Positions 920 to 53,642 of a DNA stretch of 59,051 nucleotides are shown in pieces. The stretch spans positions 1-59,051 of the forward strand of contig JAADFR010000165.1 in assembly GCA_013152755.1 (NCBI GenBank). Direction: 5' to 3'. Position 1 is the first letter of the stretch. Each line of letters begins with the position of its first letter. A program made the translations under genes and the position numbers. Below the pieces are notes generated by a model, which did no database searches, was not told the DNA's origin, and worked only from the letters and a program-made list of their open reading frames with translations. The stretch comes from Alphaproteobacteria bacterium. GTDB taxonomy: Bacteria > Pseudomonadota > Alphaproteobacteria > Sphingomonadales > Emcibacteraceae.

Positions 920-3307
920 CTAAAAATTGAAACGGGCCGTTACATACCATTGTCGCCCTCTGTCATAGAGGCCTTCATAGGACTGAAAAGCATCGCCGAT
1001 AATTCCGGTGATAAGATATTTCTCGTCTGTAAGGTTTTTCACCCCTGCGACCAGAGACATATTCTCATCGTCATTCTCCCATGTAATATTGGCGTTAAGC
1101 AGATTATAGCCGTTTTGGTGAATTTGCGGTGTGTTGAAAGCATCATTTTCAAATGCAGAACGATAGGACCAATCCACCCGTGGGGTAAGTGTTCCACTAT
1201 TACCCAGAGCAATTTCCTTGGAAATGGCCGTACTTAGCGTCCATTTTGACACCCGGTCAAAACGGTTGTTAATATCAACAAAGGTTGTGGCAAAATCAAT
1301 GGCGTCATAGCCCGCGTCCAGATAACCGATACCAGCTTCCACGAACCAGCCATCGGCTGGTGTGGCCTGCATTTCCAGCTCAAAGCCCTTGATGGTGGCG
1401 GCCCCGGCATTTTTGGTGATCGGGGCGACACTGGTGAAGACCTGTACCTGCAAATCGGAATAGTCCGTATAGAAGGCGGCCCCGTTCAGGCGGAGCTTGC
1501 CCTCCATGCCGGAATATTTAAAGCCAAGTTCGTAAACCTGAACAAATTCCGGCAGAAATGTCGGGATCAGGTCTATATCCGGGGTGCCGGGCGGGGCGGT
1601 AAAGGGGGCCACGATCGGCGGAAAGACCCGCTGGGAAAAGCCGCCGGATTTAAAGCCTTCTGAATAGCTGGCATAGACCATCAGATCGTCTGTCATATCA
1701 AAAGACAGGTTCAGATAAGGGTCAAAATTATTATAGCTCAGCTCTTTCTGCAAAAATGGCAGAACACGTTGCCCAGCCTGCATGAAGGGTGCATCCAGTT
1801 GGGGATGGCCGGACCCGGCAAAATAATTCTGGTGAATGATCTGGTCCGGCTTGAATTTCTTTTTCTCGTCCGTATAGCGCACCCCGGCGGTTATATGAAA
1901 GCGGTCTGTAGCATCATAGGTTGCCTGTGCAAAAGCGGCAAGGCTGCGATTGTCATAGGCACCGCCGCTACGAAAACGTGATACGGTGAAATCCAGTTCA
2001 TTGTCATTGTCGCCGGTCTCTTTAAAATAATAAAGCCCGGTAATCCAGTTGAGTTTTTCATGCAGTGCGGTGCCGAGAAGCTGAAATTCCTGGGTGAATT
2101 GCTCCTGAGTCAGGAAATCCTCAAACTGGGAAATCCGGAAGGGGGAATGATCACCGTCCCGGGCAAAATGGGCATCCAGATTGCGGTAGGCAGTGATTGA
2201 GCGGAAGGAGATATTTTCATTTATATCCCAGTCGATATTCAGGTTCGCCGCCCAGAAATCGGTATTTGAGAAAGCCGGAGCCGTCCCTGATGTGCGTTCC
2301 GCGCCATCATAGACATAGCGATTGTCATAACATCCCGGAACCGCCAGATTAAGCGGGGCCGGGGGGATGGCGCAAGGAACTGGCCCCCCGCCAGCAGCCA
2401 GATTGGCCCCCACATTATGGATCACTGCCATGGGCGGCGTGTCCGGATCAATGGGATTGCCTAAATTAATGCCAATCAAGGTCAGGGCCGGGCCGTTTTC
2501 CCGGCTGCGGCTGCCTTCAATGGCAAAATTAATTTCAAGGTCTTCATTGGGGGTGAGCAGGAAAGACGCCCGGCCCGACAAAACATCCTTGTCGCCAAGA
2601 TTGATACCGTCGTCCCGCTTGACATAGCCGTCCTGTTTCAGATAAGCCACGGAGAATTTGCTTAAGAAAACCTCGGAAATCGGCAGGTCAACAGTAGCTT
2701 TGAGGTCAACGCGGTTGTCGCTACCGTAAGTTGCGGAAATTTTACCGCCCAATTCTTCCGAGGGTTTTTTGGTGGTGATGCTGATGGCGCCGCCAATGGT
2801 GTTCCGGCCAAAAAGAGTGCCCTGCGGTCCTTTTAGAACTTCCACCCGTTCCACATCAATCAGGTCCAATATGCCGCCGATGGAGCGGGCGATATAGACG
2901 CCGTCCACATAAAGTCCGACCCCCGGGTCAACGGTGGGCAGGAATTCTTTCTGACCAATGCCGCGAATATAAATGGCGGCGGTATTACCGGCCCCGCCAA
3001 AGCTCGGGTTGTTTTGAAAGGACAAATTCGGGGTGAATTGGGCGATTTCCCCCACATTGGTCACGCCGCGATATTCAAGGCTGTCCCCGGAGAAGGCAGA
3101 AATGGCAATAGGGGTGCTTTGCAGGCTTTCTTCCCGCTTTCGGGCGGTGACAGTGATTTCCTCCAAAAGCCAGCCAGTGCTGCCCGCCTTATCCTCTTGG
3201 GCATAGGCGGAAAGTGGATTTATCAGAATCATGGACGACAGAATTGTGCCGTATAATAATTTTTCGGCGAGATGGTTTTCCTTAAAAGACTTAGACTTCC
3301 TTTGCAT
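920..3307 (-). CDS. TonB-dependent outer-membrane receptor A
   Basis: This 795-residue protein should be an outer-membrane beta-barrel that imports a substrate using TonB energy. It begins with a signal peptide (cleavage near SAYAQ, about residue 36) and then a TonB-box-like stretch EEITVTARKR (about 48-57). The plug domain carries the characteristic VEVLKGPQGTLFGRNTIGGA segment (about 155-175). The rest is barrel, and it ends in the expected aromatic residue (VTARFNF). A strong GAGGAGG ribosome site lies just before the ATG. It is divergent from the molybdoenzyme operon at 3621 and upstream of the AraC gene. Receptors of this iron-complex-receptor-like type are often involved in uptake of organic compounds, not only siderophores. 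The substrate cannot be told from sequence. Confidence 0.93.
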   Translation of the reverse strand: MQRKSKSFKENHLAEKLLYGTILSSMILINPLSAYAQEDKAGSTGWLLEEITVTARKREESLQSTPIAISAFSGDSLEYRGVTNVGEIAQFTPNLSFQNNPSFGGAGNTAAIYIRGIGQKEFLPTVDPGVGLYVDGVYIARSIGGILDLIDVERVEVLKGPQGTLFGRNTIGGAISITTKKPSEELGGKISATYGSDNRVDLKATVDLPISEVFLSKFSVAYLKQDGYVKRDDGINLGDKDVLSGRASFLLTPNEDLEINFAIEGSRSRENGPALTLIGINLGNPIDPDTPPMAVIHNVGANLAAGGGPVPCAIPPAPLNLAVPGCYDNRYVYDGAERTSGTAPAFSNTDFWAANLNIDWDINENISFRSITAYRNLDAHFARDGDHSPFRISQFEDFLTQEQFTQEFQLLGTALHEKLNWITGLYYFKETGDNDNELDFTVSRFRSGGAYDNRSLAAFAQATYDATDRFHITAGVRYTDEKKKFKPDQIIHQNYFAGSGHPQLDAPFMQAGQRVLPFLQKELSYNNFDPYLNLSFDMTDDLMVYASYSEGFKSGGFSQRVFPPIVAPFTAPPGTPDIDLIPTFLPEFVQVYELGFKYSGMEGKLRLNGAAFYTDYSDLQVQVFTSVAPITKNAGAATIKGFELEMQATPADGWFVEAGIGYLDAGYDAIDFATTFVDINNRFDRVSKWTLSTAISKEIALGNSGTLTPRVDWSYRSAFENDAFNTPQIHQNGYNLLNANITWENDDENMSLVAGVKNLTDEKYLITGIIGDAFQSYEGLYDRGRQWYVTARFNF

Positions 3308-3620: not shown

Positions 3621-4499
3621 ATGACCAGTCGTGTGATGCGAGATTTTGATTTGCTGTTGCCGGAGTCCGTTCCGGAGGTTCTGGAATTATTGGCCGACCA
3701 TAAAGATAATTGTGCCATATTGTCCGGCGGGACCGATCTGCTGGTGGCTTTGAAATTTGATTACGCCGTTGATAATGTTGTTTCATTGGCACTGGTGCCC
3801 GGGTTGGATGATCTGAGTTTTGATCCTGATCAGGGGCTCAGTATCGGGGCCAAGGTGACCATTGCCGATATTGTGAAATCACAGGATGTAAAGACATACT
3901 ATCCGGCGCTGTGGCAGGCGGCAAAGGTTTTTGCCACGCCCCAACTGCGCAATACGGCCACGGTTCTGGGCAATATTATGCGGGCTTCTCCGGCGGGGGA
4001 TTGCAGTCTGGCCCTCTATGCATTGGGCGGAGATTTGCAGCTGAAAAACGCATCGGGCGTGCGGGATGTCAGTCTGGATGATTTCTGGCTTTCCTACGGC
4101 GTCACCGCCCGGCAGAGTGATGAGCTGGCCATTTCCCTGCGGGTGCCGCCGCCGACAGCGGGGCAGAAAAGCGCTTTTCAACGCATGACCCGCACCACAG
4201 AGGATTTATCCAAGATTAACGCGGCTGTTTCTTTGACTATGGCTGATGGTGTTTGTCAGAGCGCGCGGGTTGCCATGGGATGCGTTGGCCCCACATTAAT
4301 TCGCTTGCCCAAGGTTGAGGCCATGCTTGGGGGGGCTGAGATCACAGAAGACTTGTTGGGGGAAGTCTCGGACATGGTGGCCGCTGAAATTACCCCCATA
4401 GATGACATAAGATCCTCGGCAGATTACCGCCGGAAGGTGGCCGGAATTCTGGTCAGGCGGGTTATTAATCTGGCGCTTACGGAAGGAAATAACCAATGA
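3621..4499 (+). CDS. Molybdenum hydroxylase FAD-binding subunit (CoxM/XdhB type)
   Basis: This 292-residue protein is the electron-transfer flavoprotein subunit of a xanthine-dehydrogenase-family enzyme. It has the two FAD-binding signatures of the family: a SGGTDLLVALK loop at about residues 35-45 and TVLGNIMRASPAGD at about 113-126. The C-terminal CO-dehydrogenase-flavoprotein-like domain follows. Its length fits the ordinary family. The extra iron-sulfur insertion typical of the 4-hydroxybenzoyl-CoA reductase beta subunit is not seen, so that enzyme is not supported. The start has a strong AGGAGG site. The stop overlaps the start of the [2Fe-2S] subunit by four bases, indicating translational coupling. 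Confidence 0.9.
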   Translation: MTSRVMRDFDLLLPESVPEVLELLADHKDNCAILSGGTDLLVALKFDYAVDNVVSLALVPGLDDLSFDPDQGLSIGAKVTIADIVKSQDVKTYYPALWQAAKVFATPQLRNTATVLGNIMRASPAGDCSLALYALGGDLQLKNASGVRDVSLDDFWLSYGVTARQSDELAISLRVPPPTAGQKSAFQRMTRTTEDLSKINAAVSLTMADGVCQSARVAMGCVGPTLIRLPKVEAMLGGAEITEDLLGEVSDMVAAEITPIDDIRSSADYRRKVAGILVRRVINLALTEGNNQ

Positions 4500-4981
4500 A
4501 AAAACATGCGATAACATTGACCGTAAATGGTGAGGAACGGGATTTGGTTGTCCCCTCCAACCGGACGTTACTGGACGCGCTCAGGGAAGATCTGGGCTAT
4601 ACGGATACCAAATATGGTTGCGGCACCGGAGAGTGCGGGGCCTGTACGGTTTTGGTGGATGGGACCACCAGCATTAATGGCTGTCTGACATTGGCGGCGA
4701 CCATGGACGGCGCGTCAATCACCACGGCGGCGGGGCTGGCGCAGGACGGAAATCTGCATCCGGTGCAACAGGCTTTCATTGATAATGATGCCATACAATG
4801 CGGCTATTGCACGCCGGGCATGGTGCTGAAAGTTGTGAGCCTGCTGGATGAAAATCCGACCCCGACCGAAAATGAAATCCGCAGCGGTCTGGAAGGTAGT
4901 ATCTGTCGCTGTACCGGATATACAAAAATTGTCGAGGCCGTACAGGACGCCAGTAATCGCATGGCCGGGGTGGGAGAATAA
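4496..4981 (+). CDS. Molybdenum hydroxylase [2Fe-2S] subunit (CoxS/XdhC-like small subunit)
   Basis: This 161-residue protein carries both 2Fe-2S centres of the XDH family. The plant-ferredoxin-type centre uses Cys42, Cys47, Cys50 and Cys63 (YGCGTGECGAC...GCL). The helical-domain centre uses Cys102, Cys105, Cys137 and Cys139 (QCGYCTPGM...CRC). It passes electrons from the molybdenum site to FAD. It overlaps the FAD subunit by four bases and is separated from the Mo subunit by two bases. The FAD-FeS-Mo gene order is a common one for this family. The complex is expected to be cytoplasmic because none of the three subunits has a signal sequence. Confidence 0.94.
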   Translation: MKKHAITLTVNGEERDLVVPSNRTLLDALREDLGYTDTKYGCGTGECGACTVLVDGTTSINGCLTLAATMDGASITTAAGLAQDGNLHPVQQAFIDNDAIQCGYCTPGMVLKVVSLLDENPTPTENEIRSGLEGSICRCTGYTKIVEAVQDASNRMAGVGE

Positions 4982-4983
4982 TT

Positions 4984-7335
4984 ATGACTGAACTTAAAGT
5001 TGTTGGAAAAAGAGTGGAACGGGTTGACGTTAGGGCCAAGGTCACAGGCGGCGCGCTCTATGCCGCTGATGTACAGCTTGCGGGCATGTTATACGGCAAG
5101 ATCGTGCGCTGTTACGATTATGCCCATGCCCGGGTGACAAGCCTTGACCTTTCCGAGGCCGCAAAATGCAAGGGCGTGATCAAGGTTCTGGGGCCAAAGG
5201 ACGTAACCCAAAAGGAGTATAATGCTTCTGTGCTGGATATGATGGTGTCGGCGGATATGCGCGGCGTTCTGGGTGATATAGATGACCAGAGCATTTTTAC
5301 CGATCATGTGAAGCATTACGGCGATGCGATTGCCGCCGTTATTGCTATCTCGGAAGAGGCCGCTGAACGGGCCGCTGAGAAAATCAAGGTCACTTACGAG
5401 GAACTACCGGTTTATATGACGGCGGAGGCTGCCAAACAGGCGGATGCCCTGCAATTCCGGCCTGAAAAACCGGGAAATTTGGCTTTTCAGCTACCGGAAA
5501 TGGCGTTCCCCGATAATGCCTATGCCTGGGGTGAGGTGGACAAGAGCTTTGACGAGGCTGACATTATTGTTGAGGATACTTTCTATGTGCCCAAACAAAA
5601 GCAATGTCAGATGGAACCGGGCAGCTACATCGCGCTTTATGATGATCAGGAGCGGCTTAATTGCTGGACCTCGACCCAGATGCCGAAACTGGTTCAGAAG
5701 AAGCTGGCCAATCTGTTTGAATTGCCCATGACCCGGGTCCGGATCAATGCCACCGTTATTGGCGGCGGTTTTGGCGCGCGGCTGGGTATGGTTCTGGAAC
5801 CAGAAACCTGCGCATTGGCCATGGCGGTGCCGGGCCGTCCGGTCAAGGTTCTGTCCACACGCGAAGAAGATTGGGTCACATCGCCGTCCCGCCATCCGGG
5901 TAAATACTGGATGAAGATGGGCTTTAAAAAAGACGGCACGCCCGTGGCCTGTGATGCCAAATTTGAAAATTATAAGGGCGCCTATTATGTGGATGCCTCT
6001 GGCACCGCCTTTACCACGGGCGCGTGGCTGGGCGGCATGTATAAATTCGACAGCCTGCGCTACAGGGGCGAATCCTATTATACCAATCAGAGTATTTGCG
6101 GGGCCTTTCGTGGCTACGGCAATCCCCAGACCAATTTTGTTATGGAACAGATGATTGACCGGGGCTGCGCGGAACTTGGGGTTGACCCCATCGAATGGCG
6201 CAAGAAATGGCACAAGGGGGTCGGTGATGACGGCTGGTGCATCGGGGTGCCCTATAACAGCTGCGCGTTGGATGAATGTTTGGACCGGGCGGCAGAGGCG
6301 GCGAACTGGACCGAAAAGCGGGAAAAATACAAGAATCAGACCGGGACAAAGCGGCGCGGGATTGGTGTCGCGGTGATGAACCATACCAGCGGGGCCATGC
6401 CCATGCTGCTGGAACATACGGTTTGTGACGCCTTGCTTCATCAGGATGCCACGGTGACCCTCAATCTGGCCTGCTCTGATATGGGGCAGGGGTCCCATAC
6501 GACCCTGCGGCAGGTGGCAGCGGAAACGCTGGATTTCGCTTATGAGGATATTCATATTGCAACCGGGAATACGGATGCAGCGGGGTTTGATATTGGCGCT
6601 CATGCCAGCCGGACCCTTTATGTGGGCGGCGGGGCTGTGAAGCAGGCCTGCGAAGATGTGCGGCGGCAATTGTTTGAGCGTGCGGCACTGGAACTGGAGG
6701 AGGATGTGGATAATCTCTATATGGAAGACAAGATCATCCATGTGAAGGGCTCATCCAATAAATCCATCTCCGTTCAAACCATTGCTGATCAAGGGGTCAA
6801 TAATTTCATGAACCCGGAAACTGGGGAGCTGATTGGTCAACCCGGCCAGATTCAGGGCTATGCCAGCTTTTTCCCGCCCCATAACGCCCCGCCCTTTGGC
6901 ACAACCATTGCCGAGGTGGAAGTGGATATGGAAACCGGTGAGGTCAAGGTTCTGGAACTGGTCAATGCCCATGATGTGGGACGTGCCATTCATCCGGGCG
7001 TGGTGGAAGGTCAGCTTGACGGCGGCGCACAGCAGGGCCTGGGCATGGCTTTGACCGAGGAAACCTATTATGATGACAAGGGCATTTGTCAGAATAACAG
7101 CTTCACCGATTACAAAATGTTCGGCCCATCTGATATGCCGAAAATGACTAATATTCTGGTGGAAAACCCGGACCCCACCGGGCCGTTCGGGGCCAAGGGT
7201 GTGGGCGAGGCGGGACTAGTGCCGCCGGTGGGGGCCACGGCCAACGCCATCTTTAATGCCATCGGAATCCAGATATTGGAGGCCCCGATCACGCCGGAGA
7301 AAATCCTGAAAGCTCTGGAAGATGCGAATGATTAG
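4984..7335 (+). CDS. Molybdenum hydroxylase catalytic (molybdopterin) subunit, XDH/CoxL/HcrA family
   Basis: This 783-residue protein is the molybdenum-cofactor subunit. Visible family signatures are GGGFGARLG (about residues 259-267), GAFRGYGNPQ (about 370-379), a DMGQGSHTT cofactor loop (about 498-506), and GAKGVGEAG near the C-terminus. In the last, Glu742 corresponds to the catalytic glutamate. The FRGYGNPQ form is that of xanthine/aldehyde/hydroxybenzoyl-CoA-type enzymes and not the CO dehydrogenase active-site loop. The reaction should be hydroxylation of an aldehyde, N-heterocycle or aromatic compound with water as oxygen donor. The substrate is not deducible. No XdhC-type cofactor insertion gene lies nearby. 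The next gene, another molybdoenzyme, starts 147 bases downstream. Confidence 0.92.
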   Translation: MTELKVVGKRVERVDVRAKVTGGALYAADVQLAGMLYGKIVRCYDYAHARVTSLDLSEAAKCKGVIKVLGPKDVTQKEYNASVLDMMVSADMRGVLGDIDDQSIFTDHVKHYGDAIAAVIAISEEAAERAAEKIKVTYEELPVYMTAEAAKQADALQFRPEKPGNLAFQLPEMAFPDNAYAWGEVDKSFDEADIIVEDTFYVPKQKQCQMEPGSYIALYDDQERLNCWTSTQMPKLVQKKLANLFELPMTRVRINATVIGGGFGARLGMVLEPETCALAMAVPGRPVKVLSTREEDWVTSPSRHPGKYWMKMGFKKDGTPVACDAKFENYKGAYYVDASGTAFTTGAWLGGMYKFDSLRYRGESYYTNQSICGAFRGYGNPQTNFVMEQMIDRGCAELGVDPIEWRKKWHKGVGDDGWCIGVPYNSCALDECLDRAAEAANWTEKREKYKNQTGTKRRGIGVAVMNHTSGAMPMLLEHTVCDALLHQDATVTLNLACSDMGQGSHTTLRQVAAETLDFAYEDIHIATGNTDAAGFDIGAHASRTLYVGGGAVKQACEDVRRQLFERAALELEEDVDNLYMEDKIIHVKGSSNKSISVQTIADQGVNNFMNPETGELIGQPGQIQGYASFFPPHNAPPFGTTIAEVEVDMETGEVKVLELVNAHDVGRAIHPGVVEGQLDGGAQQGLGMALTEETYYDDKGICQNNSFTDYKMFGPSDMPKMTNILVENPDPTGPFGAKGVGEAGLVPPVGATANAIFNAIGIQILEAPITPEKILKALEDAND

Positions 7336-7482
7336 ATTCTTCTTTCCTTAAAGGCTCATTGATGTTATTCATATATGTAATTTAATAATAAAAACACTGT
7401 TAAAAATAATTAAAGAGCAGAAAAACATCAATTCGGGCGCAGGAGCCTGAAGAATATAGTGTAAAATATTTGGGAGATCCGA

Positions 7483-10077
7483 ATGACTGATCAAACGCCT
7501 GTCCAAAATTCCATGAAGTCAGGCACATGGAAAAAATCCTCATGCAAGATGTGCATACATTCCTGCAACACTGTTGTCCATGTGACCGATGATGGTGTCA
7601 TTAACAAGATTGAGGGCGACCCGGACAGCCCGGCCAATATGGGGCGGCTCTGTCCCAAGGGTAATGCGGCGATCATGCGCCATTATGACCCCAGCCGGTT
7701 CAAAACACCGCTGAAACGCACCAACCCCGAAAAGGGACCGGGCATTGATCCCATGTGGGAGCCGATCAGCTGGGACGAGGCCATGGAAACCACAATCCGT
7801 GAGCTGAAAACCTCCATTGATGAAGACCCGCGCAAGCTCCTGCCTTCCATTGCCGATTTTCAGAAGCTCTATCTCTGGGCCTGGCCTCTGGTGGTGAATA
7901 ACAGCAACTATTTCTCAACGGCGGGCAGTTTTTGCGGCGGTGGCTATCACCCGATGAATGGTTTTATCCATTCCACCTTTGCGGCGGCCAATGATGTGAA
8001 TTACTGCAATTACTGGATTAATAACGGCAGTGGGGATGGTTTTTCCTCTCACCTGCATACGGCGGCCCAGGCCTATCATGTGGCCAATGCGCGGGTAGAG
8101 CGCAATATGCGGGTGGTTTGCGTAGAGCCGCGGCTGTCCATCGGCGGGGCCAAGGCCGAAGAATGGGTGCCCATCAAACCGGCGTCCGACCGGCATTTTG
8201 CGCTGGGTCTTTGCCATGTTTTGATCAAGGAAGAACTGTGCGATTATGAGACCCTGAAGAATGACACCAATGCCCCCTATCTGGTGGGTGAGGATGGTTA
8301 TTTCATTCGCAATGCTGACGGCAAGATTTATGTCTGGGACGGCAAGGATAATAAAGCGAAACTCTATGATGACAAAACCGTAGGCGAATTTTCCCTTGAG
8401 GGATCATATGAGGTGGACGGCAAGCCCTGCAAACCTGCCTTCCAGAAATTCAAGGATATTCTGGAGGAATGTACGCCGGAAAAAATGTCCGATACCACGG
8501 TGCCTGCCGATACCATTCGGCGTATTGCCCACGAATTTTCCGAGGCCGCCGAAATTGGCAATACCATAACCATTGAGGACCGGACACTGCCTCTGCGTCC
8601 GGCGGGCTATAATTATTACCGGGGCGCGCACGCTCATAAATATTCCAGCCAGTCCAACCACGCTTTCAAGCTGGTCAATATGCTGGTGGGTAGTATTGAT
8701 GTGCCGGGCGGTCATGTGGGGGCGACCCTTGATGATCAAAAGGTGGATAACGGCCATGTGGCCGAAGGCGACAGCGGGCAATTGCTGGGCACACCTCATC
8801 AGCTTGGCCCTCATCCGGGCTTTTCCTTTCCGCCGGACAATATGGATTTGATGAGCTATTTCCCTCTTGGGGTTCATCCGGGTCATTTGAATGTGGAGGT
8901 CTGGAAAAATCCGGAGAAATTCAATCTGGATTTCAAACCGGATGTGATGCTGATTTGTCACTCCAATCCGATCTGGAGTCTGCCGGGAAACAGGGAAGAC
9001 TGGTTCGACATCATGCGTTCTATGCGCTTTATCGTTGCCATCGACATTGTGCCCAATGACACCAACTGTTTTGCGGATATTATCCTGCCCGGTCATGATT
9101 CTCTGGAAAGCTGGAACATGACCATGATCGAGCCGCCCCATACGGAAGGCATGTGCCTGCGTCAGCCTATGACCGAGCCGCTCTATGATACCCGCAGCGA
9201 GGAAGATATATTCAATGATATATCCGAGGGGCTGGGTGTGCTGGAAGTCTGGAACAGCGTGCTGAATATTGTCAATGGCTTTGAGGAAAGTCCAAATCTG
9301 AAATTGGAGCTGGATCAGAAACACGGCGAGAAAGAAATTGCCCGCCGCAAGGGTCTGAACTGGAACGGTAAGGATCTGGACTGGTATATTGAGCATGGCC
9401 ATTCGGTAACCCCGCGCCGGACTGACAAATGGTATAAGCCGTGGGACGGCATGCGGCTGTTGTTCTATATTGAGGATATTATCCGCGAACGGGATGGTCT
9501 GAAAAAAGCTATGGATGAAGCCCAGGTGCCGATCCGCGATGAATGGCACTGGGATGATTATCAACCTCTGCCGACCCCGGTTCTGGAGCCGGTCCTGCGG
9601 GATAACGGTGACTATGATCTCTATGCCATCACCTTCAAGGATATTCAGCTGAATTTCGGCGAAAGCCTGAATAATCCGTGGATCAAGGATATTGTTTACC
9701 GCGATCCAGTCCATACGGCCCTGCAGCTCAACACCAAAACGGCCAAGGCCAAGGGACTTGCTGACGGTGATCTGGTGCTGGTGGAATCACAATATGGCAA
9801 GATTTATGGCCGCCTTGGCCTGACCGAGGGCATCCATCCGGAAACCATCGGCGTGTCCAATTCCCTGTCGCGTATGATGTCCCAGAATGCGGGCGTGCCT
9901 TACGGCGGCGGGCATTTCAATGACATGCTGCCGGCGGATTTGGAAAATACCGATGCCTGCAGTGCCCAGTGTGAATCTGTTTGCCGGGTGAAGCTGACCA
10001 AGCTGGACGAAATTCCCGATGAATTGAAGGGGGATGGAAACCTGTATAGCTATAGCGACGGAAAGGCCATGCAATGA
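7483..10077 (+). CDS. DMSO-reductase-family molybdopterin oxidoreductase, catalytic subunit without Tat signal
   Basis: This 864-residue protein has an N-terminal [4Fe-4S] site at Cys21, Cys24, Cys28 and Cys57 (CKMCIHSC ... LCPKG), the molybdopterin domain, and a C-terminal molydopterin-dinucleotide-binding domain from about residue 720. Cys151 in GSFCGGGYHP is placed where the protein ligand to molybdenum is expected. Unlike PsrA, PhsA, DmsA or TtrA, the N-terminus (MTDQTPVQNSMKSGTWKK) has no twin-arginine signal, so the subunit is probably cytoplasmic. A clear GGGAG ribosome site precedes the ATG. Length is closer to pyrogallol transhydroxylase/resorcinol-hydroxylase-type enzymes than to PsrA. 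It overlaps the Fe-S subunit by four bases. Family membership is secure; the reaction is unknown. Confidence 0.9.
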   Translation: MTDQTPVQNSMKSGTWKKSSCKMCIHSCNTVVHVTDDGVINKIEGDPDSPANMGRLCPKGNAAIMRHYDPSRFKTPLKRTNPEKGPGIDPMWEPISWDEAMETTIRELKTSIDEDPRKLLPSIADFQKLYLWAWPLVVNNSNYFSTAGSFCGGGYHPMNGFIHSTFAAANDVNYCNYWINNGSGDGFSSHLHTAAQAYHVANARVERNMRVVCVEPRLSIGGAKAEEWVPIKPASDRHFALGLCHVLIKEELCDYETLKNDTNAPYLVGEDGYFIRNADGKIYVWDGKDNKAKLYDDKTVGEFSLEGSYEVDGKPCKPAFQKFKDILEECTPEKMSDTTVPADTIRRIAHEFSEAAEIGNTITIEDRTLPLRPAGYNYYRGAHAHKYSSQSNHAFKLVNMLVGSIDVPGGHVGATLDDQKVDNGHVAEGDSGQLLGTPHQLGPHPGFSFPPDNMDLMSYFPLGVHPGHLNVEVWKNPEKFNLDFKPDVMLICHSNPIWSLPGNREDWFDIMRSMRFIVAIDIVPNDTNCFADIILPGHDSLESWNMTMIEPPHTEGMCLRQPMTEPLYDTRSEEDIFNDISEGLGVLEVWNSVLNIVNGFEESPNLKLELDQKHGEKEIARRKGLNWNGKDLDWYIEHGHSVTPRRTDKWYKPWDGMRLLFYIEDIIRERDGLKKAMDEAQVPIRDEWHWDDYQPLPTPVLEPVLRDNGDYDLYAITFKDIQLNFGESLNNPWIKDIVYRDPVHTALQLNTKTAKAKGLADGDLVLVESQYGKIYGRLGLTEGIHPETIGVSNSLSRMMSQNAGVPYGGGHFNDMLPADLENTDACSAQCESVCRVKLTKLDEIPDELKGDGNLYSYSDGKAMQ

Positions 10078-10688
10078 CCAGTTACGGAATGGTATTTGAC
10101 GTCAAACGCTGTATCGGGTGCAATGCCTGTACGGTGGCTTGCAAGCAGGAAAACTCCTTGCCGGACGGTGTGTTTTTCACCCGAACGCTGAGCGCGGAAA
10201 CCGGCGAATTTCCCAATGTGTCGCGGACCTATCTGCCGACGATCTGCAATCATTGCGAGGATGCGCCCTGCGAAAAGGTCTGCCCCAGCGGGGCCACATG
10301 GACCCGCGATGACGGCATTGTCATGGTGGATGCGGATAAATGCATTGGCTGTGGCTCCTGCGCGGTGGCCTGCCCATATGATATGCGCACCCAGATTGAG
10401 GAGACCCAGATTAAAGCCGGGTTGTTCGGCGACGGTAATCTGACCCCCTTTGAGGAACAGGGCTATTCCCGGTTTGAATGCGGCACCTTTACAAAATGTG
10501 ATTTCTGTTCAGAGCGTGTGGATGCGGGCAAGGACCCGGCCTGCGTCGCGACCTGTCCCACGGACGCGCGTATATTTGGTGATCTTGATGATCCGGACAG
10601 CAAGGTAAGCCGCCTGATCCGGGATCGCCTGGGCCGTCAGCCCCTGCCGGAGAAGAATACCCGGCCCAAAGTATTCTATATTGATTGA
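10074..10688 (+). CDS. Four-cluster [4Fe-4S] electron-transfer subunit (DmsB/PsrB type)
   Basis: This 204-residue protein has 16 cysteines arranged as four ferredoxin-like motifs: Cys13/16/19/23, Cys58/61/66/70, Cys90/93/96/100 and Cys142/145/157/161. That is the standard pattern for the beta subunit that wires a DMSO-reductase-family enzyme to its membrane anchor. It overlaps the catalytic subunit by four bases. The membrane subunit starts 16 bases after its stop. The small size (about 200 residues) matches DmsB/PhsB, not the larger pyrogallol transhydroxylase beta subunit, which carries an extra domain. It has no signal peptide, as is usual for these subunits. Confidence 0.93.
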   Translation: MTSYGMVFDVKRCIGCNACTVACKQENSLPDGVFFTRTLSAETGEFPNVSRTYLPTICNHCEDAPCEKVCPSGATWTRDDGIVMVDADKCIGCGSCAVACPYDMRTQIEETQIKAGLFGDGNLTPFEEQGYSRFECGTFTKCDFCSERVDAGKDPACVATCPTDARIFGDLDDPDSKVSRLIRDRLGRQPLPEKNTRPKVFYID

Positions 10689-10704
10689 CCCGAGGAGAAA
10701 GACC

Positions 10705-11613
10705 ATGTTTAACATAAGTTTGAAAAACACCCTTCGCCCCGGATTTGCTGGCCGGACCTTTAAATCCGGCTATCGCTTTCAGCGTTACTGGGGCACGCCC
10801 ATGGCAACCGCCTTCTTTTGCGGGGAGACCGGGGCCGGGCTATTCATCATTTCCATGCTGCTGGATTTCATGCCGGGGATTATCCTTGGCCTGTTGATTA
10901 CGGGCGTGGGCAAGACCTTTTTCCATCTGACCCATATGGGGGTGCCGTCAAAGTCATGGCGGGCCATATTGCGTCCTGACCGCTCGTGGATCAGCCGGGG
11001 CCTGTGGGGGATTATATTCTTTGTGGGCTTTGGCAGTCTTCATATTCTGGGCCAGATATTCGGGGTTATGCCAGAGGCTTTGGCACAGCCCGTTTATTAT
11101 CTAGCCCTTGCCGGGGCGATGGTGGTCATTGTCTATCAGGGGTTCGCCATGTCCCATTCCACGGCTATATCCCTGTGGAGTACAGGATTAATGCCCGTAT
11201 CCAGTATGCTCTATGGTTTGCTGGCGGGAACATCCCTGATTACGATCCTGAGTGTTTTTGGTTTTTCTGCCGCCCATATGGATATGGTTATCACGGTGCA
11301 AAATATTTTACTGGTTGGCGTGCTGGTGACGCTCATCAGTTTGCTCCATGGAGCGAAAAACGGGTCCAAGGGGGCGCAACAATCTTACGTCCTGCTGACC
11401 AGTGATTTTCTGGCGCGGCCTTTCTTGTATGGCGTTGTGGGAATCGGGGTCCTCATTCCCCTGTTGATCGGTCTGCTCGCATCGCAAAACACCATTACCA
11501 TATTGGTTTCAGGCGTCTGTGTGCTGATCGGTTTTTGTCTTTTCAGGCTGCTTATTTTTAAAGCCGGGGTGCTTGACCCTATCCTAAGTCCCGCAGATAT
11601 CTTCAAGAGATAA
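10705..11613 (+). CDS. NrfD/PsrC-type membrane anchor subunit
   Basis: The ATG at 10705 has a GAGGAG site at good spacing. A TTG 24 bases upstream would extend the frame into the preceding gene and is less likely. The product is about 302 residues with around eight hydrophobic segments, matching NrfD/DmsC-type subunits that exchange electrons with quinones. GTPMATAFFCGETGAGLFIIS near residue 30 and FFHLTHMGVPSKSWRAI near residue 75 are typical of the family. It completes an alpha-beta-gamma complex with the two preceding genes. A rho-independent terminator follows 28 bases after the stop. Confidence 0.9.
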   Translation: MFNISLKNTLRPGFAGRTFKSGYRFQRYWGTPMATAFFCGETGAGLFIISMLLDFMPGIILGLLITGVGKTFFHLTHMGVPSKSWRAILRPDRSWISRGLWGIIFFVGFGSLHILGQIFGVMPEALAQPVYYLALAGAMVVIVYQGFAMSHSTAISLWSTGLMPVSSMLYGLLAGTSLITILSVFGFSAAHMDMVITVQNILLVGVLVTLISLLHGAKNGSKGAQQSYVLLTSDFLARPFLYGVVGIGVLIPLLIGLLASQNTITILVSGVCVLIGFCLFRLLIFKAGVLDPILSPADIFKR

Positions 11614-11640
11614 GCGGACTTCATAATAAACTTATTAGAA

Positions 11641-11677
11641 AGCCGATTGATATCGTTGTGTCAGTCGGCTTTTTTTT
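11641..11677 (+). terminator. Rho-independent terminator of the molybdoenzyme operon
   Basis: AGCCGATTGA (11641-11650) pairs with TCAGTCGGCT (11661-11670) with one wobble pair, followed by a run of nine T. It lies directly downstream of the NrfD-type gene and closes the operon. Confidence 0.88.
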
Positions 11678-11802: not shown

Positions 11803-14340
11803 ATGGCTCGTTATCATAAAACAGGGAAGAATATTGTGACTCAAAATACTCCAAAAAGAACGAATAATTTTTTGAACAACCTGCTCGGGTTTACGGCACT
11901 GGCGGGCATGATGTTGGCAACCGCGCAGACATCCGTTGCGCAAAGTGATGCAGAGGACGCAAAGCCCGATAGCACGGTTCTGGAAGAAATCACCGTAACC
12001 GCCCAAAAACGTCAACAGAATTTACAGGATGTCGGCATCGCAATTTCGGCCTTTACCGGCGCCATGCTGGACAGGATGGGCGTGACCCAGAGCTATGAAG
12101 TGGCTGACCTGACGCCAGGCGTCCATATCAGCGGAAATCTTGCCGGTCAGAATACCCAGTTTACCATTCGCGGCGTGACCCAGAATGACTTTAATGACAT
12201 CGTGGAATCGCCCAATGCGGTTTATCTGGATGAAGGCTATATCGCCATCGCGCAGGCACAGTCCTTCGCCACATTCGATATTGACCGGGTTGAAATTCTT
12301 AAAGGACCGCAGGGCACGCTCTTTGGCCGGAACGCGACAGGCGGCCTTGTGCATTATATCAGCCGTCAGCCAACCTTTGACGAGGTGAAGGGGTATGTTG
12401 ATGCGACTGTCGGTATTTATGACACACCGGCCAATGCACAAAGTTATGAGGTTACCGGGGCCTTGAATATCCCCATGTCAGACAAGTTAGCGGCGCGGTT
12501 CGCGGTAAAATACCGCAATCATGAAGGCTATTTGAAAAACAATTATCCGGCGGGCCAGTTCGGCGGTTCTCCCGGGGCCGGGGCCGGGGCTAATTTGGGC
12601 GATGATGATACTTTTTCCGCCCGCAGTACTTTCCTGTTCCAGCCCAATGAAGATCTGTCCATCCGCCTTTCCGGCAATTATTCAACCAGTAATCTGGCCA
12701 CAGGCCCCTATCAGTCCAAACCGACCATTGCCGTTTTTGAGAATGTAAATGGCGCGCCGGAACTTGTGAATGTTATTGATGTGGCTGCCGGGGAAACACG
12801 GGCATCGATTGCGCCTGATGGTTCTGATTTTGGGTCTGATCTGGATAATGATGGTATCTTTGGGTTGAATGACCCGGATGATGCCTTTCTGACATCCCGC
12901 TTTGGGACTGGTACTGACTTTTTTGGCTATCTTGATCCCGACGGTGCAGATTTTACCACTTCCAGTGACTTTGCCTTTCAGAATCAGGGAAGTATTGACA
13001 CTTATGGGGTTAACTTGAATATCGGTTGGGATATTAATGAAAATACGACGTTAACTGCCATTACTGACTTTAAAGATTATAAAAAACTGTTGTTCATTGA
13101 TGTGGATGCGGCACCAGTTAATCAAACGGGCAATTTTGCGTCTGTAGATGCGACTAGCTTTACTCAGGAAATACGCCTTAACGGTGAAGGCGAAAGAACC
13201 CGCTGGGTCGCCGGGCTGTTTTACCTGAATATTGACAATGAATCACATAATGGTTTGAAATTTCCTGTGGGCAGTGTGGTTCCCGGTGCCCCGTTTGACC
13301 TGTCATCCGTTGCCAAGTTAAAGACGAATTCCTATTCCGCTTTCGGTCAGGTAGAATATGATTTGAGCGATAAGCTGACCTTCATTACCGGTATCCGATT
13401 GATACGGGAAGAAAAGGATTACGATTTTCTTCAGGGTATATTTTTCACCCAGAGTTCTTTGGAAATTGATCAGGGAACGCCTTTCCAGATCGGCCCGTTA
13501 TTTAACGGACCGGGTGGGTCTCCCTCGTCATTTCTCTCCAAAACCAGCAATACGCTCTGGGCCGGAAATATTCAACTGGATTACCGCCCGAATGATGACC
13601 TTCTGGTTTTTGCCTCCCTTAAACGCGGGGTAAAAGCCGGCAGTTTTAACGCGCAACTGGCTGGCGGCGCGCCGGTCCCGGATCTGGTCAATGCCATTCC
13701 CTATAAGGAAGAAGTCCTCTATAGCTATGAATTGGGATTTAAGAAGACATTTGCCGATGGTCGTGCCCGTTTTAACGGTAACTTCTTCTATTATGATTAT
13801 AATGATTATCAGGCCTTTCTGTTCACGGGTGTTTCCGGGCTTGTCGTTAATGCCGATGCCCGCTATGTCGGGGCTGATTTTGAATTACAGGTAATGCCGG
13901 TTCAGGGGCTGTTGGCACAATTCTCAGGATCATGGATTGACGCAAAACTTAGCAATGTTCCCTTGCGTATTGGCGGCCCGGTCCGGCGCGATTTGCAACC
14001 AACCTATACGCCGAAATTCCAGTTTTCCGGATTGCTGCGCTATGAATGGGAGGCGTTCGGCGGGATGATGTCAATTTTAGGGGATGGTTCATGGTCAGAC
14101 TCTTTCTTCTATAACTTAAGAAATTTCGATGCAGATAAGTTTGGCAGTTATTTTCTGGTCAATGCCCGTTTGGGGTGGACCAATGAAGATGAAACGCTGG
14201 AAGTGGCCTTGCAGGCCCGAAATCTGACCGATGCACGCGCGGGAACCCAAGGGTTTGACCTTGCCACTTTATGCGGCTGTAATGAGGTTGCTTACCGGGC
14301 GCCGCGCTGGTTCGGGTTCAATGTAAAAGTCAACTATTGA
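11803..14340 (+). CDS. TonB-dependent outer-membrane receptor B
   Basis: This outer-membrane receptor is up to 845 residues long. It has a signal peptide ending near TSVAQ, a TonB-box-like EEITVTAQKR, a plug with VEILKGPQGTLFGRNATGG (about 165-183), and a barrel ending in FNVKVNY. The first ATG (11803) lacks a clear ribosome site. A GTG eleven codons later (11836) is preceded by AGGGAAG at good spacing and gives a more normal signal peptide, so it may be the true start. An oxidoreductase gene starts 13 bases after the stop, suggesting a two-gene operon. It shares the plug signature with receptors A and C but has a different insert-rich barrel, including a DNDGIFGLNDPDD-like acidic loop around residue 350. 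The substrate is unknown. Confidence 0.92.
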   Translation: MARYHKTGKNIVTQNTPKRTNNFLNNLLGFTALAGMMLATAQTSVAQSDAEDAKPDSTVLEEITVTAQKRQQNLQDVGIAISAFTGAMLDRMGVTQSYEVADLTPGVHISGNLAGQNTQFTIRGVTQNDFNDIVESPNAVYLDEGYIAIAQAQSFATFDIDRVEILKGPQGTLFGRNATGGLVHYISRQPTFDEVKGYVDATVGIYDTPANAQSYEVTGALNIPMSDKLAARFAVKYRNHEGYLKNNYPAGQFGGSPGAGAGANLGDDDTFSARSTFLFQPNEDLSIRLSGNYSTSNLATGPYQSKPTIAVFENVNGAPELVNVIDVAAGETRASIAPDGSDFGSDLDNDGIFGLNDPDDAFLTSRFGTGTDFFGYLDPDGADFTTSSDFAFQNQGSIDTYGVNLNIGWDINENTTLTAITDFKDYKKLLFIDVDAAPVNQTGNFASVDATSFTQEIRLNGEGERTRWVAGLFYLNIDNESHNGLKFPVGSVVPGAPFDLSSVAKLKTNSYSAFGQVEYDLSDKLTFITGIRLIREEKDYDFLQGIFFTQSSLEIDQGTPFQIGPLFNGPGGSPSSFLSKTSNTLWAGNIQLDYRPNDDLLVFASLKRGVKAGSFNAQLAGGAPVPDLVNAIPYKEEVLYSYELGFKKTFADGRARFNGNFFYYDYNDYQAFLFTGVSGLVVNADARYVGADFELQVMPVQGLLAQFSGSWIDAKLSNVPLRIGGPVRRDLQPTYTPKFQFSGLLRYEWEAFGGMMSILGDGSWSDSFFYNLRNFDADKFGSYFLVNARLGWTNEDETLEVALQARNLTDARAGTQGFDLATLCGCNEVAYRAPRWFGFNVKVNY

Positions 14341-38155: not shown

Positions 38156-38926
38156 TTATTTTCTTTTTTGACTGTCCCGGTCACGACGTCTGTGCTTCAT
38201 GAGTCCGGTAAGTCCCAAGAATATAAGGCTTATGGCCGCCAAGTCCATAAGATAAGGGCCCCATGACCCTAAAATATGCCCGGAATGAATATCAAGGATC
38301 AGACGGGACAGGGAAATGCCCTGTCCCTGAAAATCCAACATGATCTTTTCCGTGATCTGTCCGGGGGCCTTTTGCGTCTTTGAGCTGTGGGTCAGGCGGT
38401 TCGGGGCCGGGGTCCATGACATATAATCATCGGGAGAGATGTAATATCCGTCTGTTGTATCTATCTGGACCAAACCGTTTCCTGTCGGGCCAATAGCAGT
38501 TATTGAGCCGGGTAGGGATGTGCTGTCCAGGCGCTCCACAAGGGTGCCATCTTGCTGAAACAGGGTAAGGCTATCTTTACTGGCCACAAGGATTAGGCCA
38601 TCTGCAAAGGCTGCACCGATCAGACGATCCAAATTCTGATCTATTAGATTGCCGTTCAGATAGAGCCGTCCCTCAAGCCAGCCCAGCCAATGGTCACCGG
38701 TTTTGAAAAATATGGGCTCTTCCGAGGGAGCCATTCCGTAAAGACTGGTGACAAGGCTGTTCTTGACCGTGATTTGGGTGAGGCCGAGTTTTTCGGTCCG
38801 GTTCAGGATCAGCCCGGTGATGCTCAGGATAAAGACAAGAAATATGGAGCCATAACCAACCCATCTGTGCCACCTCCGGATTGTTTTTTGCATTATCCGG
38901 TTATTATTTTTCTTTTGACGGGTCAT
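38156..38926 (-). CDS. PepSY-type transmembrane protein
   Basis: This 256-residue protein has one transmembrane segment after RRWHRWVGYGSIFLVFILS (His20), a large periplasmic part (about 45-220), and a second transmembrane segment near the C-terminus preceded by LILDIHSGHILGSWGP. This is the design of short PepSY_TM (PiuB-like) proteins, where histidines may ligate haem and which are linked to ferric-siderophore reduction. Its start overlaps the end of the FMN-binding protein gene by 23 bases, so the two are translationally coupled. A role as inner-membrane electron carrier is inferred. Confidence 0.78.
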   Translation of the reverse strand: MTRQKKNNNRIMQKTIRRWHRWVGYGSIFLVFILSITGLILNRTEKLGLTQITVKNSLVTSLYGMAPSEEPIFFKTGDHWLGWLEGRLYLNGNLIDQNLDRLIGAAFADGLILVASKDSLTLFQQDGTLVERLDSTSLPGSITAIGPTGNGLVQIDTTDGYYISPDDYMSWTPAPNRLTHSSKTQKAPGQITEKIMLDFQGQGISLSRLILDIHSGHILGSWGPYLMDLAAISLIFLGLTGLMKHRRRDRDSQKRK

Positions 38927-39455
38927 CTTTTTCCATAAGTTTGCTGTTTAAATAGAGGGCCAGGCGGCTGGCCTTTTTCATGGCGTTGGAGGACATGGTG
39001 GCCCCGGATATGCCGTTGATGGGTTTGGACAGGCGCAGTTTTTCGGTCAGGAAAATTTGGTCAAATTGATTTTTAAAAGCCGGAAACCGGATTTCTGACC
39101 CCCGGCTTTCCCGGAATGTCAAAACGGTCAGGTCAATGATTCTGCCGTCTTCGATGGTGATGCCGGTGGTGATGGGCATGGTTCTGCCCACCACATTTAA
39201 AATCCATACGGTACGATTGCCCTGCTGGTAATAGCGATAGCGCAGGGGAAAGACTTTTTTCCGCAGTATCCTTGTAATCTGTGGCTTTAAATCTCTCGTC
39301 ACCCATATGATGCCCGGCTTGTCCGGCCTCGCGCCCAAGGCCGCCACGATATAGTCGGTGGCTTTCAGGTAGCTTTCCTCTATGGCCGTCACCTTTGCCA
39401 TTGCCGGTGACAGAAACAGAACCATGAAAAATATGGATATGAACAATCGTCTCAT
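38904..39455 (-). CDS. Exported FMN-binding (flavinylated) protein
   Basis: This 183-residue protein has an N-terminal signal peptide (cleavage near SPAMA, residue 20) and an FMN_bind domain. The covalent FMN site is visible as ISGATMSSNAM, with Thr153 the expected flavinylated residue (SGAT motif). ApbE-type enzymes attach FMN to such a threonine; an apbE gene is divergently encoded at 40864. The protein should sit in the periplasm and move electrons between the PepSY membrane partner and an acceptor. The porin gene ends 12 bases upstream. Confidence 0.88.
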   Translation of the reverse strand: MRRLFISIFFMVLFLSPAMAKVTAIEESYLKATDYIVAALGARPDKPGIIWVTRDLKPQITRILRKKVFPLRYRYYQQGNRTVWILNVVGRTMPITTGITIEDGRIIDLTVLTFRESRGSEIRFPAFKNQFDQIFLTEKLRLSKPINGISGATMSSNAMKKASRLALYLNSKLMEKDDPSKEK

Positions 39456-39467
39456 TTCAGAATGGTC

Positions 39468-40733
39468 CTAGAATTGTAACCCAAGCCCAAGATTAACCCG
39501 ATTATCTTCCTGAAGGCTATTGGCAAAATTGTCAATCTGATAATCCAGCTTTAGTATAACATTCTCGTGAGGCCAATAGCTGACGCCGAGGGTGGTTTGG
39601 CGAAAGCTGCTGTCTATGTTATCCCCGGCCTCATTATCCCACAGGCTGTATCGGGCAAAGAAACCGATGGCATTATTTTCATCCAGTGTGATTTTATAAG
39701 AGGGTTCCACATACCAGCCGCGCTGTATATTCCGGCCAAGGAGCCGCGCTGTATCGGCCTGAACGTTCCACTGGGCATAGAGGGCGCGAAGACCGAAAGA
39801 CGTATTTTCGCTCACTGCGCGGTTGATTTCGGTATTGATCTCAAACAGGGTCGCTGTGGCTTTTTCGTCTATGCCGCCGCTCTGGGTTATATCATCCTGA
39901 TATTGGAAGCTGGCAGCAACCTTTACCCCGGGCAAGCCATGCCATTTCACCCGTGTAGTAACGGCGGTATTTTTCCACGGCGCGTTGCCAACCTGCTGGC
40001 GACCTTTACGTATTTTATAGCCATAGCCGGTGGTGTCCAGTCCGGAATGCATCATCACATCATAGCTGAAACTGTCATTCAAATTGCCGCTTAGCATCAC
40101 GCCGGCTTCACGCCATGTGGTCGGAATGATCTTGTTTTCGACACTGTTACGTTCTACCCCGTAAAATGTCGCTGGCTCATGGGTTTCATTTACGATGCCC
40201 ACGGGGACAAGCTGCATGCCCACACTGGCCCGGGTGCGTTCAGTCAGGTCAAACTCCATAAAGGCCTGTTCCATTTCAACGGCCCCGACCTGACCGCTAC
40301 CGGATATGGCATGTTCGACTTCCAGTTCGCTGTAAAAACGTATTTTATCGCTGAATTCATGACCGAGGAATATAACAAAACGATGCTGGTCGATTTGATC
40401 CTTTTTGCCGCCGTTATAATGGAGTTCAGCATAGCCGCCAACGGTTGTTGCCCCTGAACTGCCATGAGATGTCTCCAAACCACCCGAGAGGGCAACCTGA
40501 TCCAGTATTTCTCCCGTGGCTTCGATCTTCTTTTCGGTTTCCGCCACTTTTTCAGTGGTAATGCCGACGATAGTTTCCAGTTTTTTGATCTGTTCCTGTT
40601 GGTGCAGGATCATTTGCCACATTTCTGCCCGGGTGGGCATGTCTTGCAGGGGCGGGGTTTGAGCAATGGCTGTTGAAGCTGAAAGAACGAAGGACAGGCC
40701 AAAGATAAGGGGTGTATTCTTAAGGGTCATCAT
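39468..40733 (-). CDS. Outer-membrane porin-like protein with coiled-coil N-terminus
   Basis: This 421-residue protein has a signal peptide (ending near STAIAQ), then a predicted coiled coil of about residues 35-80 (MILHQQEQIKKLETIVG...). The barrel contains GGYAELHYN, many alternating strands, and ends in NLGLGLQF with the C-terminal Phe expected of outer-membrane barrels. The coiled coil resembles that of trimeric Opr-type porins. It is the first gene of the Fur-box-preceded group porin, FMN-binding protein, PepSY protein. Its cargo is unknown; iron-related transport is inferred from context. Confidence 0.82.
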   Translation of the reverse strand: MMTLKNTPLIFGLSFVLSASTAIAQTPPLQDMPTRAEMWQMILHQQEQIKKLETIVGITTEKVAETEKKIEATGEILDQVALSGGLETSHGSSGATTVGGYAELHYNGGKKDQIDQHRFVIFLGHEFSDKIRFYSELEVEHAISGSGQVGAVEMEQAFMEFDLTERTRASVGMQLVPVGIVNETHEPATFYGVERNSVENKIIPTTWREAGVMLSGNLNDSFSYDVMMHSGLDTTGYGYKIRKGRQQVGNAPWKNTAVTTRVKWHGLPGVKVAASFQYQDDITQSGGIDEKATATLFEINTEINRAVSENTSFGLRALYAQWNVQADTARLLGRNIQRGWYVEPSYKITLDENNAIGFFARYSLWDNEAGDNIDSSFRQTTLGVSYWPHENVILKLDYQIDNFANSLQEDNRVNLGLGLQF

Positions 40734-40758
40734 GTGTACTCTGTGTTAATTTTCAATA

Positions 40759-40779
40759 CTAATAATCATTCTCAATATT
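40759..40779. promoter_or_regulatory. Fur-like box 1
   Basis: On the minus strand this reads AATATTGAGAATGATTATTA, containing TGAGAATGATTATTA. That is a close match to classical Fur boxes built from GATAATGATTATC-type units. It is 26 bases before the porin start and 85 before apbE, suitable for repressing both in iron-replete cells. Confidence 0.65.
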
Positions 40780-40802
40780 ATTAATTAATATTAGCTATCA
40801 CA

Positions 40803-40822: not shown

Positions 40823-40863
40823 TTAAAAACATAATATTGTGACAATGATCACCCAATGAATTA

Positions 40864-53607: not shown

Positions 53608-53642
53608 ATTTCAATAGTATTACCTTCAACAGGAGGACATTT

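Follow-up and report, generated by a model that had tools for sequence, protein, structure and literature searches.

Paired molybdoenzyme genes of Emcibacter and distant bacteria as candidates for an oxygen-independent route from indole to isatin

Known routes and the two molybdoenzymes of the locus

Indole is a widespread signal, a product of tryptophan and a pollutant, and its breakdown in the absence of O2 has been followed through metabolites since the 1980s. In the portion of a 2018 review covered here, the metabolites of anaerobic indole degradation include oxindole, isatin, dioxindole and anthranilate, the oxygen is expected to derive from water, and the anaerobic mechanism is considered a black box (PMC6221969). 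Here, we analyzed a stretch of 59,051 nucleotides (the window), i.e., contig C165 (JAADFR010000165.1) of the 2.9-Mb draft genome GCA_013152755.1 of an Emcibacter alphaproteobacterium, in which genes for a xanthine dehydrogenase (XDH)-type hydroxylase neighbor those for a complex of the dimethyl sulfoxide reductase (DMSOR) family. Judging from gene content and comparison between genomes, we consider it likely that both molybdoenzymes catalyze consecutive steps of oxygen-independent indole catabolism.

A described counterpart of the second enzyme is PadBCD, which oxidizes phenylacetyl-CoA at a CH2 group between the aromatic ring and a carbonyl, as part of the pad route leading from phenylacetyl-CoA via phenylglyoxylate to benzoyl-CoA. 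As for indole, no title or abstract opening among the matches listed from the open full-text literature (subscription papers and preprints being outside its scope) concerned genes for the O2-free conversion of indole to oxindole and isatin. An earlier sequence-only reading of the window had known of no described pathway with this combination of enzymes; this stands as regards assigned genes in the open literature covered, but not as regards the metabolites, since oxindole, isatin and anthranilate are known. The enzyme families are familiar as well, while that literature appears to contain no description of the DMSOR clade, of the reaction proposed for it or of its pairing with the hydroxylase.

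The six open reading frames (ORFs) of both enzymes were confirmed on the forward strand, with Pfam matches above cut-off for each subunit. The hydroxylase is encoded by genes for a FAD subunit of the CoxM/XdhB type (3621–4499) and a [2Fe-2S] subunit (4496–4981), and for a molybdenum subunit (4984–7335), a predicted indole 2-hydroxylase converting indole to oxindole. After a 147-base gap (7336–7482) follow the 864-residue DMSOR catalytic subunit (7483–10077), predicted to dehydrogenate oxindole to isatin, a ferredoxin-like 4Fe-4S electron-transfer subunit (10074–10688) and a NrfD/DmsC-type membrane anchor (10681–11613), the predicted quinone-reducing subunit. Thus, the two complete three-gene units described in the sequence-only reading agree with the ORFs, their coordinates and the Pfam assignments. 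The junctions are, in gene order, a 4-base overlap, a 2-base gap, the 147-base gap, a 4-base overlap and an 8-base overlap. The called start of the NrfD-like gene is TTG, an in-frame ATG near 10705 being the more likely one; as the gene caller trims some starts, we used gene ends and identities and disregarded starts.

By its domains the hydroxylase belongs to the XDH family (MoCoBD_1/2, FAD_binding_5 and Fer2_2 above cut-off across the three subunits), and the three best solved relatives of its molybdenum subunit are 4-hydroxybenzoyl-CoA reductase, 6-hydroxypseudooxynicotine dehydrogenase and quinoline 2-oxidoreductase. It stays below the NCBIfam cut-offs both for xanthine dehydrogenase (XdhA, 642 vs. 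780 bits; XdhB, 166 vs. 310 bits; XdhC, 178 vs. 217 bits) and for 4-hydroxybenzoyl-CoA reductase (515 vs. 995 bits). In turn, Pfam resolves the second complex into a molybdopterin subunit with an N-terminal 4Fe-4S motif, a ferredoxin-like subunit and a NrfD/DmsC-type anchor. The catalytic subunit exceeds none of the NCBIfam cut-offs listed, including those for type II DMSO reductases (TIGR03479, 116 vs. 985 bits; EbdA, 57 vs. 2000 bits), and its closest solved sequences are ArrA and the PsrA-type reductase 2vpw. ArrA also came top of the fold search with an AlphaFold model of the subunit (mean predicted local distance difference test score 85, predicted template modeling score 0.89); this confirms the fold but not the substrate. 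Cys151 is invariant in a 33-row alignment, PadB included, and aligns with the Cys of ArrA and 2vpw that we take to be their Mo ligand; the same role is predicted for Cys151. We saw no twin-arginine pair at the N-terminus of the subunit, and the complex should therefore face the cytoplasm.

Co-occurrence, ring opening and the CoA step

Our genus sample consisted of 16 Emcibacter genomes, the window's own included. The DMSOR gene (at least 91% identity) is present in 10 of them and the XDH-type gene (at least 89%; in two pieces in G001) in 13, and every one of the 10 genomes with the DMSOR gene keeps the XDH gene. The three genomes with only the latter are drafts of 62–67% completeness. Adjacency of both units is not obligatory across the genus: in 6 of these genomes the hydroxylase genes immediately precede the DMSOR gene, while in the remaining four the units are found on separate contigs, with other genes ahead of the DMSOR gene. 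Isatin hydrolase (at least 76%) is encoded in 15/16 genomes and the alpha subunit of an IOR-type 2-oxoacid oxidoreductase (at least 75%; split across contigs in two) in 16/16. The gene order in relatives reads IOR beta–IOR alpha–isatin hydrolase–AraC–TonB receptor on one side and hydroxylase–DMSOR complex–TonB receptor on the other, with a CMD/AhpD-like gene (just under the Pfam cut-off) between AraC and the receptor in some. This full order was seen in L026, L027, L030 and L032, i.e., in all four relatives that share the arrangement of the window and whose upstream flank is readable. The nearest relative by XDH identity, G014 (99%; receptor 97% identical to the window's), retains the receptor–AraC–isatin hydrolase–IOR part (L140), and AraC–isatin hydrolase–IOR is also found in L120.

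To look outside the genus, we scanned species genomes for exact peptide patterns, an approach in which absence proves nothing. Of the 51 loci obtained, 9 belong to the genus, 41 come from elsewhere and have DMSOR identities of 59–67%, and one is a false or remote match. The XDH search covered 26 of the 39 non-genus genomes with a DMSOR gene, a hand-picked and non-random set, and revealed an orthologue (62–70%) in 14, in 8 of which it shares a contig with the DMSOR gene at a distance of no more than 13 kb. The pair thus co-occurs in Alphaproteobacteria, Betaproteobacteria and Desulfobacterota-type genomes, mostly together with a cyclic-amide hydrolase and a 2-oxoacid oxidoreductase. In a Desulfocarbo genome (L068), 12 co-directional genes encode the hydroxylase trio, a hydantoinase-type enzyme, PadE-F-G-H-I-type proteins and the DMSOR trio. 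In a survey of 398 evenly drawn Pseudomonadota genomes, many of which were scored on just two first-look candidates each, each orthologue was detected at E ≤ 1e-200 in the window's own genome only (0/397 others). The pairing is thus not a product of chance, and the co-occurrence that the sequence-only reading had proposed to look for was found both within the genus (10/10) and outside it (14/26). Among 388 plasmid records searched for the DMSOR complex, none reached 60% identity.

The determinants of isatin hydrolase are, in the part of the source covered, a Mn motif, a WxW/FxW pocket and a GLQC/GLAS signature (PMC6117287). Hydrolases of the Emcibacter relatives match solved isatin hydrolases at E values of 1.6e-100 to 2.6e-94, and all three motifs (HxG[T/A]HxDxPxH, WxW/FxW, and GLAS or GLQC) occur in 22/22 aligned rows, representing 21 different genes; five out of five control PF04199 cyclases of another group have the metal motif only. 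In 11 non-genus loci (Aromatoleum, a Telmatospirillum-like genome, groundwater and related genomes) isatin hydrolase adjoins a DMSOR complex 59–68% identical to that of the window, and PadE/G/H/I-type genes are also present in 10 of these. Isatin hydrolase is absent from four genomes forming one clade of the DMSOR tree (G067, G081, G082, G085), and exactly these, among 31 genomes searched, encode a hydantoinase/dihydropyrimidinase-type protein at E ≤ 1e-100. Its gene sits before the PadE-type gene or next to the XDH gene, i.e., at the place of isatin hydrolase. In one of the four, the 2.2-Mb draft G085, the XDH orthologue was not found. Two unrelated cyclic-amide-opening enzymes at the same place speak for a cyclic-amide intermediate, which, together with isatin hydrolase, points to isatin. 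In a groundwater betaproteobacterium (L135, 3717–6052), XdhC- and MobA-type genes for Mo-cofactor maturation (Pfam) adjoin the isatin hydrolase cluster on the opposite strand.

The 2-oxoacid oxidoreductase is of the IOR type in Emcibacter and of the PadEFGHI type in most other lineages with a ring-opening gene, both types being present in A. toluclasticum. Single representatives of the latter exceed the NCBIfam cut-offs for PadE (318/300 bits, L034), PadG (762/700, L064), PadH (573/475, L041) and PadI (833/700, L064). A parallel with PHENYLACETATE is offered by ordinary pad clusters in three Aromatoleum genomes (L107–L109), which contain an FdhD-like gene, PadB, PadC, PadD, PadE-F-G-H-I and a phenylacetate-CoA ligase (matches of 66–69%; in L107 the ligase, PadG and PadI are above cut-off). 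PadEFGHI proteins are 57–73% identical between these clusters and those with isatin hydrolase and the DMSOR complex; beside the latter no phenylacetate-CoA ligase was seen, and isatin hydrolase stands there instead. PadB of the three pad clusters shares 29–31% identity with the window's DMSOR subunit, and the two fall into separate clades with a Shimodaira–Hasegawa-like approximate likelihood ratio (SH-aLRT) support of 100 in a quick LG+G4 tree, SH-aLRT being its only support measure. We therefore rejected the identification of the complex as PadBCD. The two kinds of cluster look like duplicated logic, the second proceeding, as we propose, from oxindole via isatin and isatinate to 2-aminobenzoyl-CoA.

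For the step beyond the CoA ester, a candidate family is NF006101, a monooxygenase/reductase family named for salicylyl-CoA 5-hydroxylase and, as we presume, including the 2-aminobenzoyl-CoA monooxygenase of A. evansii. It scored above cut-off in 12 of the 17 genomes searched and in none of 14 controls, and is fragmented in G002, G008 and G012. The member of the window's genome (C76, 39301–41607) lies in a co-directional run with a short-chain dehydrogenase, a MarR-like regulator, an enoyl-CoA hydratase, an acyl-CoA dehydrogenase and a benzoate-type CoA ligase, the last slightly under its model's cut-off (349 of 375 bits). In four Aromatoleum genomes, the NF006101 gene shares a contig with the DMSOR gene at a distance of 27–41 kb. 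In A. toluclasticum, IOR genes lie about 4 kb from it, alpha and beta showing 60 and 46% identity, respectively, to their Emcibacter counterparts.

The proposed pathway and its alternatives

From the gene content, order, homology, co-occurrence and motifs observed, we infer the reactions, their substrate and direction, and the electron acceptor. The XDH-type enzyme (3621–7335) would place water-derived oxygen on C2 of indole, beside the ring nitrogen, yielding oxindole. The membrane-anchored, presumably cytoplasm-facing DMSOR complex (7483–11613) would perform a four-electron oxidation of the C3 methylene of oxindole to isatin, probably via dioxindole, with electrons passing over Fe-S clusters and NrfD to quinone. 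This methylene is benzylic and alpha to a carbonyl, and the chemistry would be of the same type as that of PadBCD on phenylacetyl-CoA. Isatin hydrolase would open the lactam to isatinate (2-aminophenylglyoxylate), the CoA-acylating 2-oxoacid oxidoreductase of the IOR or PadEFGHI type would form 2-aminobenzoyl-CoA, and aerobes might continue via the operon with the salicylyl-CoA/2-aminobenzoyl-CoA-family monooxygenase. Two successive water-derived oxidations feeding electrons to quinone through NrfD had already been suggested from the sequence, and co-occurrence across lineages supports them, the chemistry and electron route being modeled on homologues. The substrate, which the sequence-only reading had left without a candidate, now has a specific one in indole. 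A broader formulation, which we regard as probable, is that an O2-independent upper indole pathway, combining an XDH-type indole 2-hydroxylase with a new clade of membrane-bound DMSOR enzymes (oxindole:quinone oxidoreductases oxidizing a lactam alpha-methylene by four electrons), is common to sulfate-reducer-type genomes, Aromatoleum and marine Alphaproteobacteria, and has recruited two unrelated cyclic-amide hydrolases for ring opening.

Several observations weigh against this proposal. No isatin hydrolase could be found in the genome of the window itself (best match 41%). As IOR alpha there begins at base 3 of a 3-kb contig (C153) and the window begins inside the AraC gene, hiding any gene beyond it, an assembly gap is the probable cause, and the hydrolase gene would most likely be located between C153 and C165. 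Within the genus, the gene beyond AraC is a different one in G002 (L123), isatin hydrolase and IOR lie away from the hydroxylase in G012 and G013, and G004, G010 and G015 possess them without either molybdoenzyme (L137–L139), where an oxygenase or some other source may provide the isatin. In the DMSOR tree, the Emcibacter clade neighbors gammaproteobacterial sequences instead of those of Aromatoleum, and PadB forms a clade of its own; a phylogenetic placement of the 864-residue protein had been asked for in the sequence-only reading. The substrate call for the window thus rests on the neighbors (isatin hydrolase and IOR of relatives, the XDH orthologue) and not on the DMSOR sequence alone. Many of the gammaproteobacterial copies are located in other gene surroundings, with XDH relatives of only about 40% identity except in G077 (Thiodiazotropha), which has both molybdoenzymes and in which neither ring-opening enzyme was found at the thresholds used. 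Outside the genus, 12 of the 26 searched genomes have no XDH relative above about 40%; DMSOR relatives lacking the orthologous hydroxylase may use other substrates, and two of these genomes, G074 and G084, do encode isatin hydrolase (62 and 57%). A. buckelii (L035) has isatin hydrolase and no Pad-type genes in the stretch read, no whole NF006101 gene was found in G064 and G065, and the NF006101 model does not separate 2-aminobenzoyl-CoA from salicylyl-CoA enzymes. Finally, the TonB receptors are unexplained, since indole diffuses freely.

This last point would be accommodated by a substituted indole (methyl-, hydroxy- or carboxy-) or another fused N-heterocycle, imported by the two receptors flanking the cluster and degraded by the same ring-opening logic. 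Isatin hydrolase defines the intermediate merely as isatin-like, and the surroundings of the gammaproteobacterial complexes suggest that the family may be versatile. Yet, the isatin-pocket motifs are retained in all 22 rows, and, with an unsubstituted ring, the CoA step (PadEFGHI-type or IOR) and the enzyme of the NF006101 family would point to plain 2-aminobenzoyl-CoA; we regard such a substrate as rather unlikely. It is quite improbable that the two enzymes are mere genomic neighbors with unrelated substrates. The separation of the units in 4/10 genus genomes, a weak promoter-like site (7382–7410, 9/12) between them and the 12/26 non-genus genomes with the complex and without the orthologous hydroxylase would fit this notion, but each of the 10 genus genomes that encode the DMSOR subunit also retains the XDH gene, be it adjacent or elsewhere, and the two occur together again in distant classes, against 0/397 in the Pseudomonadota survey.

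The likeness of the subunit plan to PadBCD, and PadEFGHI-type neighbors above phenylglyoxylate dehydrogenase cut-offs, would also suit a variant phenylacetate pathway to which the XDH-type enzyme is incidental. This we hold to be highly improbable, as three of the same Aromatoleum genomes carry ligase-bearing pad clusters with a distant PadB in its own clade, and the cluster in question contains isatin hydrolase, no ligase and, often, a conserved XDH gene. Still less credible, to the point of being nearly dismissed, is a reductive role as a respiratory reductase or dehydroxylase like ArrA, PsrA or catechol dehydroxylase: although ArrA and 2vpw are the nearest solved sequences and ArrA tops the fold search, the subunit has no twin-arginine pair, the adjoining genes serve oxidative ring opening, and the layout mirrors that of PadBCD, an oxidative enzyme. 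Two further assignments were tried and rejected. Xanthine or purine catabolism, suggested by the XDH models and the hydantoinase-type enzyme, is at odds with the missed cut-offs, and isatin hydrolase and PadEFGHI-type genes misfit purines. As for indoleacetate catabolism, the main text on the iaa-operon enzyme (PMC8360864) contains none of the terms molybd, oxindole, hydantoinase, xanthine or hydroxylation.

Surroundings of the locus and comparison with known systems

The hydroxylase genes are preceded by two genes on the reverse strand: one for a TonB-dependent receptor (920–3307), a neighbor conserved across the genus and divergent from the hydroxylase, and one for an AraC-type regulator (3–848; AraC_binding_2 above and HTH_18 below cut-off), whose C-terminus is lost at the contig end. 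Downstream, a hairpin with a T-run (11637–11674, +) has by far the longest stem among the terminator-like sites of our scan, which overall showed no excess (16 sites vs. a shuffle mean of 18.7). It is followed by a second TonB-dependent receptor gene (11803–14340, +), which occupies this position also in L026, L027, L028, L030 and L032. A terminator-like hairpin and the divergent receptor and regulator of the sequence-only reading were thus all found. Its single operon stands in part: one transcript across both enzymes is plausible here, but the units lie apart in four of the ten genus genomes, and the weak site in the 147-base gap may be a second promoter before the DMSOR genes.

Elsewhere in the window, PepSY-like, FMN-binding-like, porin-like and ApbE-like flavin transferase genes stand in a row (38156–41862; by eye), possibly forming a flavin-based electron-transfer unit. 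A PreT-like oxidoreductase (53592–54988; by eye) is broken into two ORFs that adjoin a PreA-like gene (54990–56264) and an aminotransferase gene (56261–57577). Labels such as FdhD, LLM, FAH, peptidase, MarR and SDR-like (short-chain dehydrogenase/reductase-like) were assigned by eye throughout unless Pfam or NCBIfam is named. In the gammaproteobacterial loci L046–L073, DMSOR relatives are accompanied by LLM-type flavoprotein, FAH-family hydrolase, ketopantoate-reductase-like, creatinase-like and M20 peptidase genes (by eye) and by a different PF04199-type cyclase, and in L049 and L066 by an XDH-type trio of about 40% identity. These loci possibly represent a second heterocycle pathway of the same two-molybdoenzyme logic. 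DMSOR paralogues (33–35%) were seen in G063 (C5, 74506–77124), G064 (C20, 301900–304533) and G065 (C234, 74184–76802) as matches spanning in-frame TGA codons; they probably overrun the gene ends, the open frames called in L111 and L112 being 856 and 865 aa long.

If the proposed pathway is true, a degradation route of which chiefly the chemical intermediates are known would gain the genes it lacks, and indole turnover could be traced by markers in sediments, in groundwater and in the sea. It would also suggest another substrate for some Pad-like genes above phenylglyoxylate dehydrogenase models. With candidates named for the two enzymes, the ring-opening partner and the CoA step, the question can be put to a direct test in Aromatoleum species, which are cultivable.

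Compared with quinoline 2-oxidoreductase, 4-hydroxybenzoyl-CoA reductase and 6-hydroxypseudooxynicotine dehydrogenase, the window's hydroxylase has the same three-subunit plan (FAD, 2Fe-2S, Mo), whereas its predicted substrate is a five-membered ring. PadBCD shares with the DMSOR complex the Pfam-supported set of molybdopterin subunit, Fe-S subunit and membrane anchor, and the PadBCD/PadEFGHI clusters of Aromatoleum and Thauera resemble the DMSOR clusters in an FdhD-like gene nearby (by eye) and a CoA-acylating 2-oxoacid dehydrogenase. In contrast, the N-terminal Fe-S motif has four Cys in the window's subunit and three aligned in PadB, isatin hydrolase replaces the CoA ligase, and an XDH-type hydroxylase is added as a partner. 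With the isatin hydrolases of Labrenzia and Ralstonia the neighboring hydrolase of the relatives shares all three signature motifs; here, however, it belongs to a gene set that could form isatin from indole without O2. The predicted oxindole, isatin and anthranilate-level product match those reported for Desulfobacterium indolicum and denitrifying communities in the portion of the review covered (PMC6221969). In the literature covered, that anaerobic degradation is known from metabolites, whereas here genes are proposed for it, and these extend to a marine alphaproteobacterial genus.

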